In this document: positions 38 through 33,220 of the stretch, piece after piece
How positions within the stretch are numbered: position 1 is the stretch's first letter
Layout: the number at the start of each line of letters is the position of its first letter
Origin: Chloroflexota bacterium
Lineage (GTDB): Bacteria; Chloroflexota; Dehalococcoidia; UBA6926
Direction: 5' to 3'
DNA length: 34,221 nt
Assembly: GCA_026713485.1 (NCBI GenBank)
Contig: JAPOOK010000051.1
Location: 64,914 to 99,134, forward strand
The notes under the pieces: generated by a model
What the model was told of the DNA's origin: nothing
Databases searched by the model: none
The model's input: the letters and a program-made list of their open reading frames with translations, nothing else
Program-made: the position numbers and the translations under genes

Positions 38-72
38 CGCCCCCCAAGTCATTCCCACGCAGGCGGGAATCT
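38..72. repeat. GTCATTCC palindromic repeat, half-unit plus full hairpin
   Basis: A half-unit (CCATTCCCGCG, about 39-49) is followed by a full unit at 48-71. The hairpin arms are 51-58 and 63-70 with loop GCAG; seven of eight base pairs form, with one A-C mismatch. It belongs to the same family as 15755-15777, 16815-16840, 17117-17142 and 17408-17433. It lies upstream of the toxin-antitoxin promoter. Confidence 0.75.
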
Positions 73-116
73 CAATCACAATGACGCAACCCAACCCATT
101 AACGCCGTTAAACCCC

Positions 117-7218: not shown

Positions 7219-7354
7219 AGGCAGGATGCACAATCTCCCTTCTGTCATTCCGAGCGCAGACGAGGAATCTGAGACCCTGATTGACTAACGGCGCCGGAAC
7301 GCGGCCTCGCAACCCCACAAGGCACCCAATGACAGTCGCGAACCGAGAAAAAAC
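7219..7354. repeat. Intergenic stretch with a diverged GTCATTCC repeat
   Basis: GTCATTCC at 7244-7251 and GAGGAATCT at 7262-7270 form a loose inverted pair (ATTCC...GGAAT) of a different subtype from the GTCATTCCGGCG elements elsewhere in the window. Nothing else was recognised here before the pyrG promoter. Confidence 0.5.
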
Positions 7355-9441: not shown

Positions 9442-11334
9442 GTGGACACCACAGACACCCCCAACCCCGACGAGCCGCAGCGCCCCGTCACTCGGCGCGG
9501 CATCGCCCGTCCGCCGCGCACTCGCCGCGCTTCGGGCACCGCAACAACGGAAGCACCGCCGGAGGAAAACTCCGCCCAGGAATCTGTTGCGGACAACGGC
9601 ACGACTCCGGTCGAGACGACGGACAACGGCACGGCCCCCGCCGCTCACCCTGAGCTCACTGCCGCCCACCCTGAGCCCACCGCCGCTCAGCCTGAGCCTG
9701 TCGAAGGGCCCACGGAAAACGGCGCAGCCGCTCCGGAGCCCTCCTCCCCATCAACGACAACGAGGAGGAGTCGAAGCGCGAGTGAAGCCCCCTCCATCAC
9801 GGACGGCCTTCCACCCGCCACCATGACAACCACCACCGAAACCATCGAAGACATCGAAGAAGAGGCGCCACCCCGACGCGCGCCACGCCCACGTCCCGCC
9901 AACGGTGTAGGGCAGCGGCGACGCGAGCGACCGGACCGCGGTGACCGCCCCAACCGGGCTCCCCGCGACGGCGGAGGCCCACGTCCACCCGCCAACGCTG
10001 ACGACGGCGATTCTGACACACAACAGCGTGAGCCGCGTGTCGTTGATCTGCCGGAGGCGCTTCAACAGGTCACCATCCCGCAGCTTGAGGCCCTTGATCG
10101 TGATGAGGCCGGCCGCCTCGCTGAATTCCTCAACATGCCCCCCGGCGCCGCCGTCCGACGTGATGAGATGGTCCATCGCGCCATCCAGACCCTCGGCGAG
10201 CGCGGCGGAACAATCACCGCCAGCGGCATCCTTGAGCTCACCAACGACGGCTACGGCTTCATCCGCCACCGCACCCTCCGCCACAACATCAACGATGTCT
10301 ACGTCGCGCAATCACAGATCCGCCGATTCAGCCTTCGCACCGGCGATTGGGTAACGGGCCAGGTCCGCTCACCCAAGAGCGGCGAGAAATACTACGGCCT
10401 CCTCCGCGTTGACACCGTCACCGGCCAGGAGCCCGAGATCTCACGACGCCGTCCCGTCTTTGACCAGCTCACCGCACTCTTCCCGGATCGACTCTATGAC
10501 CTGGAGACGAACCAAAAGGCCATCGCCGCCCGCCTGCTCAACCTCGTCGCCCCCATCGGCTTCGGACAGCGAGCCTTGATTGTCTCCCCACCCAAGGCCG
10601 GCAAGACCATCCTTCTCCACCAGATCGCGGACGCCATCACCTCCCAATACCCCTCCACCCACATCATGGCCGCCCTCATCGGCGAGCGACCGGAAGAAGT
10701 CACCGATTGGGAGCGCACCGTTAAAGGTGCAGAAGTCATGGCCTCCACCTTTGACGAGCCCGTTGAAGAACACACCCGCGTCGCTGAGCTCGTCCTCGCA
10801 CGCGCCAAGAGACTCGTAGAAGCCGGGCAAGACGTCGTCATCCTCCTTGACTCCATCACACGACTCGCCCGCGCCTACAACATCGCCGCCCCCTCCAGTG
10901 GGCGCACACTCTCCGGCGGCATGGACCCCGTCGCCCTCTACCCCCCCAAGCACTTCTTCGGCGCAGCGCGCAACACAGAAGAATCCGGCACCCTCACCAT
11001 CGTCGCCACCTGCCTTGTTGACACCGGCTCCAGGCTTGACGATGTCATCTACGAAGAATTCAAAGGCACCGGCAACATGGAAGTCCACCTCGATCGCAAA
11101 CTCGCCGAGCGACGCATCTACCCCGCCATTGACGTCCTCAAGTCCGGCACGCGGCGTGACGAGCGACTCTACGACGAAAAGTCCTACCGCGGCATCGTCA
11201 CCCTCCGCCGCATGATGGCTATGCTCTCCAACTCCAACCTTGACGCATCCGATGCCGCAGAGCGCATCCTTGACCGCATCTCAAAGACCAAGACCAACGC
11301 CGACTTCATCGCCACACTATCCCGTGAAATCTAA
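9442..11334 (+). CDS. rho: Transcription termination factor Rho with long N-terminal extension
   Basis: Rho is the hexameric RNA-dependent ATPase that ends transcription. Residues about 1-190 are a low-complexity Pro/Glu/Arg-rich extension absent from E. coli Rho. Then come the Rho N-terminal helical region ([20 protein letters not shown]), the RNA-binding cold-shock-like domain ([14 protein letters not shown]), and the ATPase core with Walker A PPKAGKT, Walker [14 protein letters not shown] and the late [15 protein letters not shown] region. The GTG start at 9442 follows AAGGAGA at a good distance. Inside the extension a seven-residue motif is repeated ([21 protein letters not shown]), and the last copy contains the dispersed GAGCCTGTCGAAGGGC repeat (9691-9709). 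Such extensions in actinobacterial Rho help bind structured RNA; that may apply here. Confidence 0.97.
9691..9709. repeat. GAGCCTGTCGAAGGGC repeat inside rho
   Basis: CCTGAGCCTGTCGAAGGGC lies in frame within the disordered N-terminal extension of Rho, encoding PEPVEG. It matches the copies at 1-17 and 17341-17359 and does not disturb the reading frame. Confidence 0.8.
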
Positions 11335-15687: not shown

Positions 15688-15723
15688 AGAGGCCCCGGGC
15701 AACCGCCCGGGGCCTCTCCCTTT
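15688..15723 (+). terminator. Intrinsic terminator
   Basis: A 12-bp perfect stem, GAGGCCCCGGGC (15689-15700) with GCCCGGGGCCTC (15705-15716), has loop AACC and can be extended by one A-T pair. It is followed by TCCCTTT. This is the strongest intrinsic terminator in the window and ends the surface-protein transcript. Confidence 0.88.
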
Positions 15724-15730
15724 AACCGCC

Positions 15731-15799
15731 CGTCATTCCCCCTCCCCCCACCCCGTCATTCCCGTGAAAACGGGAATCCAGTGCCGCCCGCAGGGCGGC
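15731..15799. repeat. Bipartite palindromic repeat (half-unit, hairpin A, hairpin B)
   Basis: A truncated GTCATTCC unit (about 15732-15740) is followed by a full unit with hairpin A ATTCCCGT (15758-15765), loop GAAA, ACGGGAAT (15770-15777). Hairpin B follows: GCCGCCC (15783-15789), loop GCA, GGGCGGC (15793-15799). Compared with the copies at 16796-16860 and 17372-17454, both stems differ in sequence but remain perfectly paired. The element lies just upstream of meaB. Confidence 0.8.
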
Positions 15800-15825
15800 C
15801 TCCCCCCCTCTGCTACCCTTAACCC

Positions 15826-16773
15826 ATGGAAGACCTCGTCACCCGCCTCCTCGACGGCAACCTCAACGCCGTCCCACGCATCCTCACCCTCCTCGAGAAG
15901 GGCGACCCCCAGGCCGATGACATCATGCAGCGCATCGCTGCCAACACCACCGGCGCCCACCGCATCGGCATCACAGGCCCCCCCGGCGCGGGCAAAAGCA
16001 CCCTCGTCGAGGCCATGACCGCCGAGCTCCGCAAACAGGACCTCACGGTCGGCGTCCTCGTTGTCGATCCCTCAAGCCCCTTCACCGGCGGCGCGATCCT
16101 CGGCGACCGCGTCCGCATGAGAGACCACTTCCTGGATCCCGGGGTGTTCATCCGCAGCATGGCCACACGCGGCGCGTCCGGCGGCCTCTCCGCCATCGCC
16201 CCCTCGGCAATGCGCGTGCTGGACGCCGCGGGCGTGGACGTCATCATCGTGGAGACCGCGGGCGTCGGCCAGACAGAGCTGGACATCATGCACACCGTTG
16301 ATAGCGTTGTGGTCGTAGTTGTGCCGGAAGCGGGCGACGCGATTCAGACCATGAAGGCCGGACTGCTGGAGATCGCCGATGTCTTTGTCGTCAACAAAGC
16401 CGACCGTCCCGGCGCGAAACGCATGGCCAACGACCTCGAGACCACCGTGCACCTGGGCAGCCGTGACATGGACTGGTGGACGATTCCCGTCCTCCAGACC
16501 GAGGGGATCCGCAACAAGGGCGTCACGGAGCTCGTGGAGGCCGTGGGACGGCATCACGAGACGCTGCGCGACGCAGGACGCCTCGAAGCCCGCCGAGCCG
16601 AGCAGAGACGCTCAGAATTTCACGCAGCCCTCAGAGAACGCCTCCTGGACCGCCTGACCCGCGCCGAACACTCGGACGCCCTCGCAGAGATCCTCCACCA
16701 GGTAGAAACCGGCCAACTCCCCCCAATAACCGCCGCCACCCACGTCCTCCAAAACCCCAACCTGCTGAAATAA
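15826..16773 (+). CDS. meaB: MeaB/ArgK-family G3E GTPase
   Basis: A P-loop GTPase that protects and reloads adenosylcobalamin-dependent mutases such as methylmalonyl-CoA mutase. Motifs are Walker A GPPGAGKST (residues about 50-58), the switch region DPSSPFTGGAILGDRVRM, the Walker B/switch II ETAGVGQTE, and the base-specificity motif NKAD. The C-terminal helical arm used for dimer formation is present. 315 residues is the normal length. No mutase genes are next to it in this window; the partner is presumably elsewhere or beyond the edge. There is no clear Shine-Dalgarno before the ATG, and the upstream region is taken up by a bipartite repeat, so expression signals are unclear. Some family members serve other B12 mutases (isobutyryl- or ethylmalonyl-CoA). 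Confidence 0.92.
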   Translation: MEDLVTRLLDGNLNAVPRILTLLEKGDPQADDIMQRIAANTTGAHRIGITGPPGAGKSTLVEAMTAELRKQDLTVGVLVVDPSSPFTGGAILGDRVRMRDHFLDPGVFIRSMATRGASGGLSAIAPSAMRVLDAAGVDVIIVETAGVGQTELDIMHTVDSVVVVVVPEAGDAIQTMKAGLLEIADVFVVNKADRPGAKRMANDLETTVHLGSRDMDWWTIPVLQTEGIRNKGVTELVEAVGRHHETLRDAGRLEARRAEQRRSEFHAALRERLLDRLTRAEHSDALAEILHQVETGQLPPITAATHVLQNPNLLK

Positions 16774-16795
16774 TCCCCTCCCCCACGCCCCCACC

Positions 16796-16860
16796 GTCAT
16801 TCCGGCCCCCCACCGTCATTCCGGCGCAGGCCGGAATCCACGCCTGGCCCGCAGGGCCAG
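16796..16860. repeat. Bipartite palindromic repeat (half-unit, hairpin A, hairpin B)
   Basis: A GTCATTCC half-unit at 16796 is followed by hairpin A ATTCCGGC (16818-16825), loop GCAG, GCCGGAAT (16830-16837). Hairpin B follows: CTGGCCC (16844-16850), loop GCA, GGGCCAG (16854-16860). It sits between the convergent ends of meaB and the winged-helix gene, where it might act as a bidirectional terminator or mRNA 3' stabiliser. Confidence 0.82.
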
Positions 16861-16902
16861 AACTCCCCTCCCCCCTTGATGTAGAAGGGCGCAAAGAATA
16901 TT

Positions 16903-16940
16903 CCTCCCCCTTGATGGGGGAGGGTTAGGGTGGGGGTGAA
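16903..16940. repeat. 38-bp element C, copy 1; supplies the winged-helix stop codon
   Basis: This 38-bp sequence is identical to 17489-17526. It begins with an 8-bp stem CCTCCCCC / GGGGGAGG with loop TTGAT and continues with a GGGTTAGGGTGGGGGTG tail. The winged-helix gene, read on the minus strand, ends inside it: codons ISPPP and the TAA at 16925-16927 come from the repeat. Confidence 0.85.
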
Positions 16941-18289
16941 ATCCCCGCCTCAACCCCCAAGAACCGCCCAATATCCCCAACCTCACCCCGCGCCTCATCC
17001 CAAATAGACCCCAGCGCCCCCTCCATCCCCGGAAACGCCTCCACCGAGATCTCAAGCCCCCGCCCCGCCTTCCCGTCATTCCGGCCACCCCTCCCGTCAT
17101 TCCGGCCACTACTCCCCTCATTCCGGCGAAAGCCGGAATCCATCGGGCTCCCGCCACGCACCCATCTCCACGACCACGTCGCCACCGCAAGCCCATCGAT
17201 AGTCACAACGGGCCGGATCATCCCGCCGCCCGCATTCACCCGAGACATATACTCCGGCGCAACCGCCAGCCCCCGCCCCCGATACCCAAGCAAATAAGTA
17301 TCAAAAAACCCCAACAACCGGACTACCGGCCCCCGCTCACCCTGAGCCTGTCGAAGGGCGAGCCCCCCACCGTCATTCCGCCCCTTATCGTCATTCCGCC
17401 CCCCACCGTCATTCCGGCGAAGGCCGGAATCCACCGCCTGGCCCGCAGGGCCAGAACCTCCGTCCACCACCCACATCCGCTCAGATCCCCTCCCCCTTGA
17501 TGGGGGAGGGTTAGGGTGGGGGTGAACCTCAACCTCCACCAACTCCCCGGAAATCGCCTCAAACCCCGCCCGAGCATCCCGCAGCGGCAGCCCCGACCAC
17601 ACGGAAAAGTCACGCTCCGTCGAAGGCCCAAACGCCCTGAAATAACGCCCCGCCAGCCGAGCGAGTGCCTCATCGCGCGAGAGCTCCGGCCGCTCGATCC
17701 CCGCCAGCCATGAATCCGCCGCCACAAAAGTCTCCGTCTTCCCGTCCAGCAGCGGCCCGTGCGCGATTACGCCCAAAAACCCCCCGGACCGCACAACATG
17801 ATGAACCGCCTGTCCTTCGACCCTTATCCCCTCCGAAACAAGCCGTTTACCCACCTCTTTTCGCGTTAAAGGGCCGTACTTTGTGAAACTCTTAACTAAA
17901 CACTCCAGCGCACGTTCGAGAGTCTTTTCATCGAGACCCATCTGCAGCCGACGTCCACTCCCCGCCGAAAAAGCCGCCGGACCAAGCAGATCCGTCAACC
18001 ACCGATGATCCTCCGACGGAATCAGGTGTAAAGTCCCCCTCATAGCCCACGTACGCACTATAGAACGTGATTCTGAAAGCGCAAACACTACATCTGCGTA
18101 CGTCAGCCCAAAACTCCGAGCCCGAACCTGCAGCGCCCCGGCACTCACATCCTGCGCTTGTATACCGCCCGTTCGACGCACAATCCCCACCACATCCACG
18201 CTTTTCCGAGAATCAACCCCAACATCCAGCCCCTGCGAAGACACGCGCATCCGCCGCGCCTCATCGGCAGTGAGTGCAATAGTGGACAT
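16925..18289 (-). CDS. Winged-helix DNA-binding domain protein (HTH_42, YcaQ/AlkZ-like) expanded by in-frame repeats
   Basis: The N-terminal two thirds resemble the HTH_42 family (YcaQ/AlkZ-like, some members being DNA glycosylases for crosslinks or alkylation): RRTGGIQAQD (the QxQ-type motif), TWAMRGTLHLIPSEDHRW, and the winged-helix region YGPLTRKEVGKRL. The family's later conserved blocks VRLLGFFDTYLLGYR, NAGGGMIRPVVTIDG and VATWSW are present. Between them lie two runs of repeat-derived sequence. One is around residues 255-318 (HPHPNPPPSRGRG, SGLRRND, LRQAQGERG), from DNA 17341-17526. The other is around residues 382-405 (SGFRRNEG, GRNDG), from 17075-17142. Neither shifts the frame. The last residues, ISPPP, and the stop come from a third repeat. 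At 454 residues it is longer than the usual ~370. It may be active, with the inserts as surface loops, or may be decaying. Confidence 0.82.
   Translation of the reverse strand: MSTIALTADEARRMRVSSQGLDVGVDSRKSVDVVGIVRRTGGIQAQDVSAGALQVRARSFGLTYADVVFALSESRSIVRTWAMRGTLHLIPSEDHRWLTDLLGPAAFSAGSGRRLQMGLDEKTLERALECLVKSFTKYGPLTRKEVGKRLVSEGIRVEGQAVHHVVRSGGFLGVIAHGPLLDGKTETFVAADSWLAGIERPELSRDEALARLAGRYFRAFGPSTERDFSVWSGLPLRDARAGFEAISGELVEVEVHPHPNPPPSRGRGSERMWVVDGGSGPAGQAVDSGLRRNDGGGRNDDKGRNDGGGLALRQAQGERGPVVRLLGFFDTYLLGYRGRGLAVAPEYMSRVNAGGGMIRPVVTIDGLAVATWSWRWVRGGSPMDSGFRRNEGSSGRNDGRGGRNDGKAGRGLEISVEAFPGMEGALGSIWDEARGEVGDIGRFLGVEAGISPPP
17075..17142. repeat. GTCATTCC repeat array inside the winged-helix gene (site 2)
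   Basis: Two half-units (GTCATTCC at 17075 and 17096) are followed by a full hairpin A: ATTCCGGC (17120-17127), loop GAAA, GCCGGAAT (17132-17139). On the coding (minus) strand it reads MDSGFRRNEG then two GRNDG-like peptides. Hairpin B is missing here. Confidence 0.85.
17341..17359. repeat. GAGCCTGTCGAAGGGC repeat inside the winged-helix gene
   Basis: CCTGAGCCTGTCGAAGGGC; read from the minus strand it encodes LRQAQG within ALRQAQGERGP. It directly adjoins the GTCATTCC array at 17372-17454. Confidence 0.85.
17372..17454. repeat. Bipartite palindromic repeat inside the winged-helix gene (site 1)
   Basis: Half-units start at 17372 and 17390. Hairpin A follows: ATTCCGGC (17411-17418), loop GAAG, GCCGGAAT (17423-17430). 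Hairpin B is CTGGCCC (17438-17444), loop GCA, GGGCCAG (17448-17454). It is translated in frame as GSGPAGQAVDSGLRRNDGGG-like sequence. It has the same order and orientation as the intergenic copy at 16796-16860. Confidence 0.85.
17489..17526. repeat. 38-bp element C, copy 2, inside the winged-helix gene
   Basis: Identical over all 38 bases to 16903-16940, and again 30-45 bases downstream of a hairpin B. Here it is read in a frame that stays open (VHPHPNPPPSRGRG), whereas copy 1 is read in a frame containing a stop. Confidence 0.88.
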
Positions 18290-33122: not shown

Positions 33123-33220
33123 GTCATTCCTGCTAAGGATGGTATCCATCGCGTACCCCCTCTATCTGTGGGAGAGGGTTAGTGCTTGCCCAGTACTTGA
33201 TCCGGGGGTGAGGGCAGCTC
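33123..33220. repeat. Degenerate repeat relics between arsC and pstC
   Basis: GTCATTCC at 33123-33130 is followed by a decayed arm with ATCCATC. From about 33170 a GGGAGAGGGTTAG stretch and a GGGGGTGAGGG stretch (33204-33214) resemble the tail of element C. These look like old, mutated copies of the repeats at 16796-16940. Confidence 0.5.

Follow-up and report, generated by a model that had tools for sequence, protein, structure and literature searches.

Repetitive extragenic palindromic (REP) sequences of the CGTC-1 class consist of an unpaired CGTC tag, an 8-bp stem starting with AT, a 4-nt loop, and a 3' tail that is mostly CCA (Di Nocera 2013, PMC3733652). They often lie just after stop codons and in some cases within genes, have no associated transposase gene, and form mainly head-to-head dimers and rare clusters; the class includes dRS3 and RPE-6, and the survey, whose five listed phyla do not include the Chloroflexi, is silent on lagging or leading strand (PMC3733652). 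Insertion sequences (IS) of the IS200/IS605 family (IS608, ISDra2) are hairpin-based, and at the fork of replication their insertion is bound to a single strand (PMC6006769). Here we describe a CGTC-tagged compound repeat in a 34,221-nt stretch (the window) of contig JAPOOK010000051.1, taken from a Chloroflexota (Dehalococcoidia) metagenome-assembled genome (MAG; G000; 1.9 Mb, 72 contigs, 91% complete). Its core appears to be a hairpin of the CGTC-1 type (A), accompanied by 5' half-copies (half-units), by either a covarying second hairpin (B) or a tail without pairing (T), and in many cases by an upstream element D (Table 1). The repeat is abundant in two members of the genus (G000 and G002) and nearly absent in a third (G001), and lies both between genes and in frame within genes.

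With CGTC-1 REPs the repeat shares the tag (CGTC, with variants TGTC and CCTC), the AT-first 8-bp stem, the 4-nt loop, a frequent position shortly past stop codons, some copies within genes, and, as judged by Y1_Tnp and RVT_1, the lack of a transposase gene; the CCA tail is seen in a part of the copies. In contrast to them, its copies run head-to-tail (34:1), are locked to one strand, and occur with half-units, B, T, and D. Neisseria dRS3, which occurs together with other repeat families in the neisserial intergenic mosaic elements, is stated to be a CGTC-1 REP as well (PMC3733652). The Rickettsia palindromic elements RPE-4 and RPE-6 are likewise CGTC-tagged palindromes lying in frame in protein genes; here, however, the inserts are composite (half-unit + A + B, C, D), belong to a Chloroflexota lineage, and occupy sites that include pgk and alkZ. 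The GTAG REPs, including their bacterial interspersed mosaic element (BIME) and REP doublet (REPIN) forms with REP-associated tyrosine transposases (RAYTs), are also hairpins that are short, mobile, and marked by an unpaired tag, but the tag here is not GTAG, no RAYT was found, and the layout of alternating inverted pairs is missing. The likeness to IS200/IS605 concerns strand behaviour, for which we use a GC-skew proxy; no IS is present, and no transposase gene was found (no PF01797 in G000 or G002). As far as the open-access literature consulted shows, what is new is the joining of A and B in one module, the presence of half-units, the head-to-tail order of copies, and the strand lock.

DNA was sampled as stretches around repeat matches together with sampled 20-kb stretches. 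The loose pattern CATTCC-N9-12-GGAATC occurs at 105 places in G000, a few of them chance matches in genes, compared with 0 for the reversed pattern. The stricter GTCATTCC pattern gives 96 places in G000, 92 in G002, and 1 in G001. Neighbourhoods were counted around 89 G000 copies, and a 22-nt core was compared in 71 copies gathered with a fixed 10-nt middle, so that their spacing is partly imposed. Many contigs of both MAGs start or end in or near repeat clusters (C26, C30, C43, and C54 of G002; C17, C31, C40, and C44 of G000). The repeats therefore probably break assemblies, and the copy numbers are lower bounds.

Within the 71-copy set, the tag is CGTC in 58, CCTC in 7, and TGTC in 3 copies; all eight stem pairs are intact in 53, the loop is GCAG, GAAA, or GAAG in 61 (with the middle length imposed at collection), and the unpaired 3' tail reads CCA in 36 and CTG in 26. 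The 3' side sets the subtype, being hairpin B, tail T (TCTCAATCACAATGACGCAACCCAACCCATTAACGCC; about TGAATCYCATTGCGCCAACCAACCCCGTAACGCC), or CCATCGGG. A preliminary description of the window, made from its letters alone, had reported modules with a constant order of half-unit, A, and B. All the stems, loops, and coordinates it quoted are present in the sequence, and the order is that of the window modules, but it is not general: among the 89 copies, half-units precede 20 (period 19-24 nt, ending at the 5' arm), B, intact or damaged, follows about 17, and T follows about 38. The proposed linkage of B to A is borne out, as 8 of the 11 GGCCC-N2-4-AGGGCC sites in the genome directly follow an A. 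Two copies had been regarded as incomplete. That at 38-72 does have one mismatch but belongs to another subtype, its 3' part being T and not a lost B; that at 17075-17142 indeed has no B and represents a CCTC-tagged subtype ending in CCATCGGG, with none of the intact CCTC...CATCGGG copies listed carrying B. Element C, expected 30-45 bp after the module, is found there in two window cases, yet as a regular 3' partner of A it was rejected, since 7 of the 89 copies are followed by it within 130 nt and 10 have it upstream. The regular partner is the upstream element D (CCTGAGCCTGTCGAAGGG), with 23 matches at most 100 nt upstream of A on the same strand and 0 on the other.

A two-hairpin covariance model recovers the three A+B copies of the window, which belong to its training set, at 15756-15802 (E 4.5e-18), 17409-17457 (1.9e-15), and 16816-16863 (3.2e-15). 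The B-less copy at 17118-17157 scores E 6e-9, and the degenerate copies at 49-79 and 33124-33162 score 8.6e-5 and 0.085. As single-stranded DNA, the three A+B modules fold better than all 200 dinucleotide shuffles (z -3.7 to -5.6). Neither Rfam at gathering thresholds nor a tRNA search gave a match in the window. Among genomes, G000 and G002 alone give strong matches to the model; outside the genus one 49-bit match was found in G033, while further matches are mostly A alone and, where read as DNA, have no convincing B. CGTC REPs also occur in other Dehalococcoidia (G077, G012, G051), where the stems differ (CCCAGC/GCTGGG, CCAGGC/GCCTGG) and most copies form head-to-head pairs with a distance of about 40-60 nt.

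Paired arms are maintained across copies. Over the A+B modules of G000 and G002, 97.8% of cells are paired, 48 cells are changed on both sides compared with 14 in shuffles, and the covariation score is 0.273 compared with 0.083. None of 500 shuffles reaches the observed value, no slid version comes close, and the earlier observation that the stems differ yet stay paired thus holds over two congeneric genomes. In hairpin B, the covariation of pairs 1, 3, and 6 is reached by 0 of 5000 permutations. Hairpin A in G000 scores above all 500 shuffles, with only pairs 6 (C-G 50, G-C 18) and 8 (C-G to T-A; reached by 9 of 2000 permutations) covarying; in other Dehalococcoidia, the three inner A pairs also lie beyond all permutations. 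Stem changes within a genome fall into few block-wise subfamilies, and most private changes are uncompensated. Single mismatches are of the G.T kind in 7 and the A.C kind in 8 cases, and this equal frequency gives no sign of one RNA strand being the selected object. Of the suggestion that an RNA or cruciform structure is selected, the kept pairing stands, but selection at the RNA level is unsupported given the equal mismatch kinds, the few subfamilies, and an orientation that follows strand composition. At one orthologous intergenic site (L009 against L137), the two species share tail T while the hairpins differ, with CCCGC/GCGGG in G000 and the CGAG subtype in G002, as if the hairpin had been replaced.

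Empty sites, which the preliminary description had proposed to look for in relatives, exist and support mobility at the sequence level. The congener G001 keeps the gene order protein-meaB-alkZ without the window copies between the genes and inside alkZ, an N run covering the end of its meaB. In pgk of G000, a 93-nt half-unit+A+B block lies in frame and encodes 31 residues, whereas the gene is uninterrupted at that site in G001, G002, G006, and G077. Conversely, a 141-nt A-B-D block of G002 is missing from G000. The AlkZ-like gene of the window contains three in-frame blocks, namely HPHPNPPPSRGRGS (element C, 17483-17524), SGPAGQAVDSGLRRNDGGGRNDDKGRNDGGGLALRQAQGER (module 3 with D, 17333-17455), and a third around MDSGFRRNEGSSGRNDGRGGRNDGKAG (17063-17161). 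G002 alkZ carries a near-identical composite core (CCCGATGG.TTCCGGCTTTCGCCGGAATGAGGGGAGTAGTGGC.GGAATGACG) in a different linker from that of G000. By inspection, the pgk and alkZ inserts bear no terminal inverted repeats of the kind that define miniature inverted-repeat transposable elements. The AlkZ-like protein matches the solved AlkZ (PDB 5uuj) by sequence with E 4.9e-55 and keeps QAQD at 44-47. In its predicted model, which also matches 5uuj, the fold is intact with most of the core at pLDDT >90, and the inserts are disordered, the repeat-coded residues 279-308 and 380-407 falling below 50. The inserts appear to sit in tolerant loops of proteins, and the reading frames are intact. Many other long open reading frames across repeats were rejected as spurious; only alkZ, pgk, DUF5671, and uppP were accepted on Pfam support, and in uppP and DUF5671 the copy may lie outside the Pfam domain. 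At about the same place in uppP (BacA), G000 has a D-like HPEPPSGHTERSPVHPERPPGHPERSRR (L058, C31) and G002 an A+B block (L160, C45).

Orientation almost always follows strand composition, whatever the gene direction. In 32 stretches with an absolute skew of at least 0.03, counts on the C-rich and G-rich strands are 97:2 for A, 151:13 for the 5' arm, 52:0 for D, 25:0 for E (GTCATTCTGAGCGCAGCGAAGAATC), and 9:0 for C. After masking of the repeats, the C-rich strand carries the tag in 34 of 38 sampled stretches. These stretches were drawn only from copy-bearing contigs and clustered copies are not independent, but cluster-level and stretch-level counts agree in their answer. Clusters more than 1 kb apart within a contig agree in orientation in 44 of 49 cases in G000 and 57 of 58 in G002, a level reached by 0 of 20,000 random draws. 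Near neighbours are in the same orientation 34 times and opposite once, as opposed to 8 and 19 for the other Dehalococcoidia families. Composition as the mere cause was rejected, since permuted 8-mers of GTCATTCC have a median C-rich strand share of only 0.56 (95th percentile 0.75). Gene direction was rejected as well: crude gene calls, which missed alkZ itself, give 25 to 17 in G000 and 25 to 26 in G002 relative to flanking genes, with no clear preference. In the window, genes of both directions agree in the sign of their third-codon-position skew, so that the skew is not simply gene direction.

No candidate mover was recovered. The RAYT gene that the preliminary description had suggested seeking was not recovered, as no Y1 transposase (PF01797; RAYT/IS200) was found in G000, G001, G002, G033, G089, G077, or G015 by a search that was positive in control genomes, and RAYT/IS200 transposases were rejected as movers. 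The search covered the copy-rich genomes G033 (75 copies, 95% complete), G089 (61, 97%), and G077 (28, 96%). Reverse transcriptase was rejected likewise, with no RVT_1 match in nine genomes. Spread of A+B by phages or plasmids was also dismissed: viral contigs contain no exact match to an A+B pattern, and a plasmid collection gave no match.

We interpret the repeat, with moderate confidence, as a compound non-autonomous mobile element of the CGTC-REP/RPE-like kind that spreads via single-stranded DNA at replication through an as yet unrecognised enzyme. The description as a compound, REP-like, mobile unit is thereby retained, while the BIME layout is not, the copies being head-to-tail. Skew would mark replication polarity, and the strand lock would reflect it. 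By the usual rule, the G-rich strand is the leading strand; the lagging-strand template, which is exposed, would then bear the hairpin with its 3'-GACG, much as in single-strand insertion of the IS200/IS605 type, and the element would be copied or inserted as exposed single-stranded DNA at the fork. The paired arms may persist because it is the folded hairpin that the machinery recognises. As neither Y1 transposases nor RVT_1 were found, the mover would be either an enzyme of the host or of a phage that has gone unrecognised, or host replication proteins that switch templates. More tentatively, this two-hairpin element may spread at the fork without a RAYT, an IS200-type transposase, or a recognised reverse transcriptase, by an enzyme that reads the CGTC/GACG tag, each new copy then facing one way with respect to the fork.

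Several points weigh against this interpretation. No insertion event was observed, and the inserts show no consistent target-site duplication; a possible CCCACG repeat at the pgk site is not required by the sequence of the relatives. Because replication origin and terminus are unmapped in the 72-contig MAG, GC skew is the sole guide to the "replication strand". The covariation consists of a few subfamilies, a pattern that neutral repair of palindromes could also give. The lock is shared by D, E, and C, which also fits selection for orientation. Finally, a gene for the enzyme could lie in the unrecovered part of the 91%-complete genome, although for RAYTs this is less likely, as they were not found either in other genomes of 95% completeness or more.

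The main rival to spread at the fork is selection on orientation. The repeats would be polar DNA signals, like Chi or the FtsK orienting polar sequences (KOPS), serving recombination, FtsK loading, or segregation, and only right-facing copies would survive, whatever their origin. A near-absolute strand lock common to five repeat families is what such signals would show, but G001 manages with about one copy, which would make the signal dispensable in the genus, the loop insertions in pgk and alkZ resemble spread and not placement, and elsewhere in the class neighbouring copies of other families mostly pair head-to-head. We consider selection on orientation unlikely. Somewhat less probable still is an origin free of mobile machinery, in which replication slippage, quasipalindrome template switching, and gene conversion would spread the modules and keep the palindromes. 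Half-units that stop at the 5' arm and recur on that side with a period of 19-24 nt, the intergenic site with the same tail and different hairpins in two species, and the subfamily-wise covariation all agree with it; alone, however, it fails to explain a complete 93-nt module in pgk or the same composite at two places in alkZ.

We regard as improbable that the repeats act as RNA, with transcribed hairpins stabilising or terminating mRNAs and stems under RNA selection. The folds are stable on both strands, covariation is strong, and in G002 the copies peak 5-14 nt past stop codons and seldom lie at divergent intergenic sites (17 convergent, 4 divergent). These features are set against the equal frequency of G.T and A.C mismatches, the lack of a clear orientation preference relative to flanking genes in crude gene calls, a search that found no terminator-like site at A or B, and a separate terminator-like hairpin (15688-15717) upstream of module 1. 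Least probable of all are RAYT-mobilised REP/BIME elements whose transposase was lost or unsampled. The conserved unpaired tag on a hairpin, the mobility, and the logic of a single-stranded intermediate match the GTAG REPs (PMC3733652, PMC6006769), but the tag is CGTC, Y1_Tnp is missing from all seven genomes searched, and CGTC REPs are reported without transposase gene association (PMC3733652).

Table 1. Repeat copies and associated features in the window
Feature	Position	Strand	Remarks
Degenerate hairpin A (one C.A mismatch), then tail T, not B	47-105	+	
CGAG-subtype copy	7243-7270	+	TGTCATTCCGAGCGCAGACGAGGAATCT
Half-unit preceding module 1	15731-15753	+	Tag, 5' arm, and C-rich spacer
Module 1 hairpin A	15754-15780	+	CGTC tag 15754-15757, hairpin 15758-15777, stem ATTCCCGT/ACGGGAAT, loop GAAA, tail CCA
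Module 1 hairpin B, GCCGCCC-GCA-GGGCGGC	15783-15799	+	Ends 26 nt upstream of meaB start codon
Half-unit before module 2	16795-16813	+	
Module 2 hairpin A	16814-16840	+	CGTC tag, hairpin 16818-16837, stem ATTCCGGC/GCCGGAAT, loop GCAG
Module 2 hairpin B, CTGGCCC-GCA-GGGCCAG	16844-16860	+	
Element C, copy 1	16903-16940	+	
AlkZ-like DNA glycosylase gene, three in-frame repeat blocks	16925-18289	-	Pfam PF06224, 2e-47
Two half-units before CCTC-type copy, within alkZ	17074-17115	+	
CCTC-tagged hairpin A ending CCATCGGG, no B	17116-17147	+	In frame in AlkZ-like gene; minus strand encodes MDSGFRRNEG
Element D	17339-17358	+	In frame in AlkZ-like gene (LRQAQGER)
Two half-units before module 3	17371-17406	+	
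Module 3 hairpin A	17407-17433	+	CGTC tag, hairpin 17411-17430, stem ATTCCGGC/GCCGGAAT, loop GAAG, in frame in alkZ
Module 3 hairpin B, CTGGCCC-GCA-GGGCCAG	17438-17454	+	In frame in alkZ
Element C, copy 2	17489-17526	+	In frame in alkZ (HPHPNPPPSRGRG)
Degenerate hairpin A copy	33123-33151	+	

Other features were noted near the repeats. The hairpin at 15688-15717, between the upstream gene and module 1, is a perfect 13-bp G+C-rich stem followed by CCCTTT, and G001 has a different strong hairpin at a comparable position (L055, about 208-243). The Rho gene of the window (9442-11334, plus strand) contains in-frame D-type repeats in its N-terminal linker, at about 9640-9710.

How CGTC palindromes spread without a transposase, including the in-gene Rickettsia elements, was left open by the 2013 survey (PMC3733652). 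One species with about one copy beside two with more than 90, all aligned in a single direction with respect to strand composition, limits the answer to a process specific to one strand and provides paired genomes in which to hunt for the enzyme. Judging from the sequences, complete modules appear to be tolerated inside a universal glycolytic enzyme (pgk) and a DNA repair enzyme.

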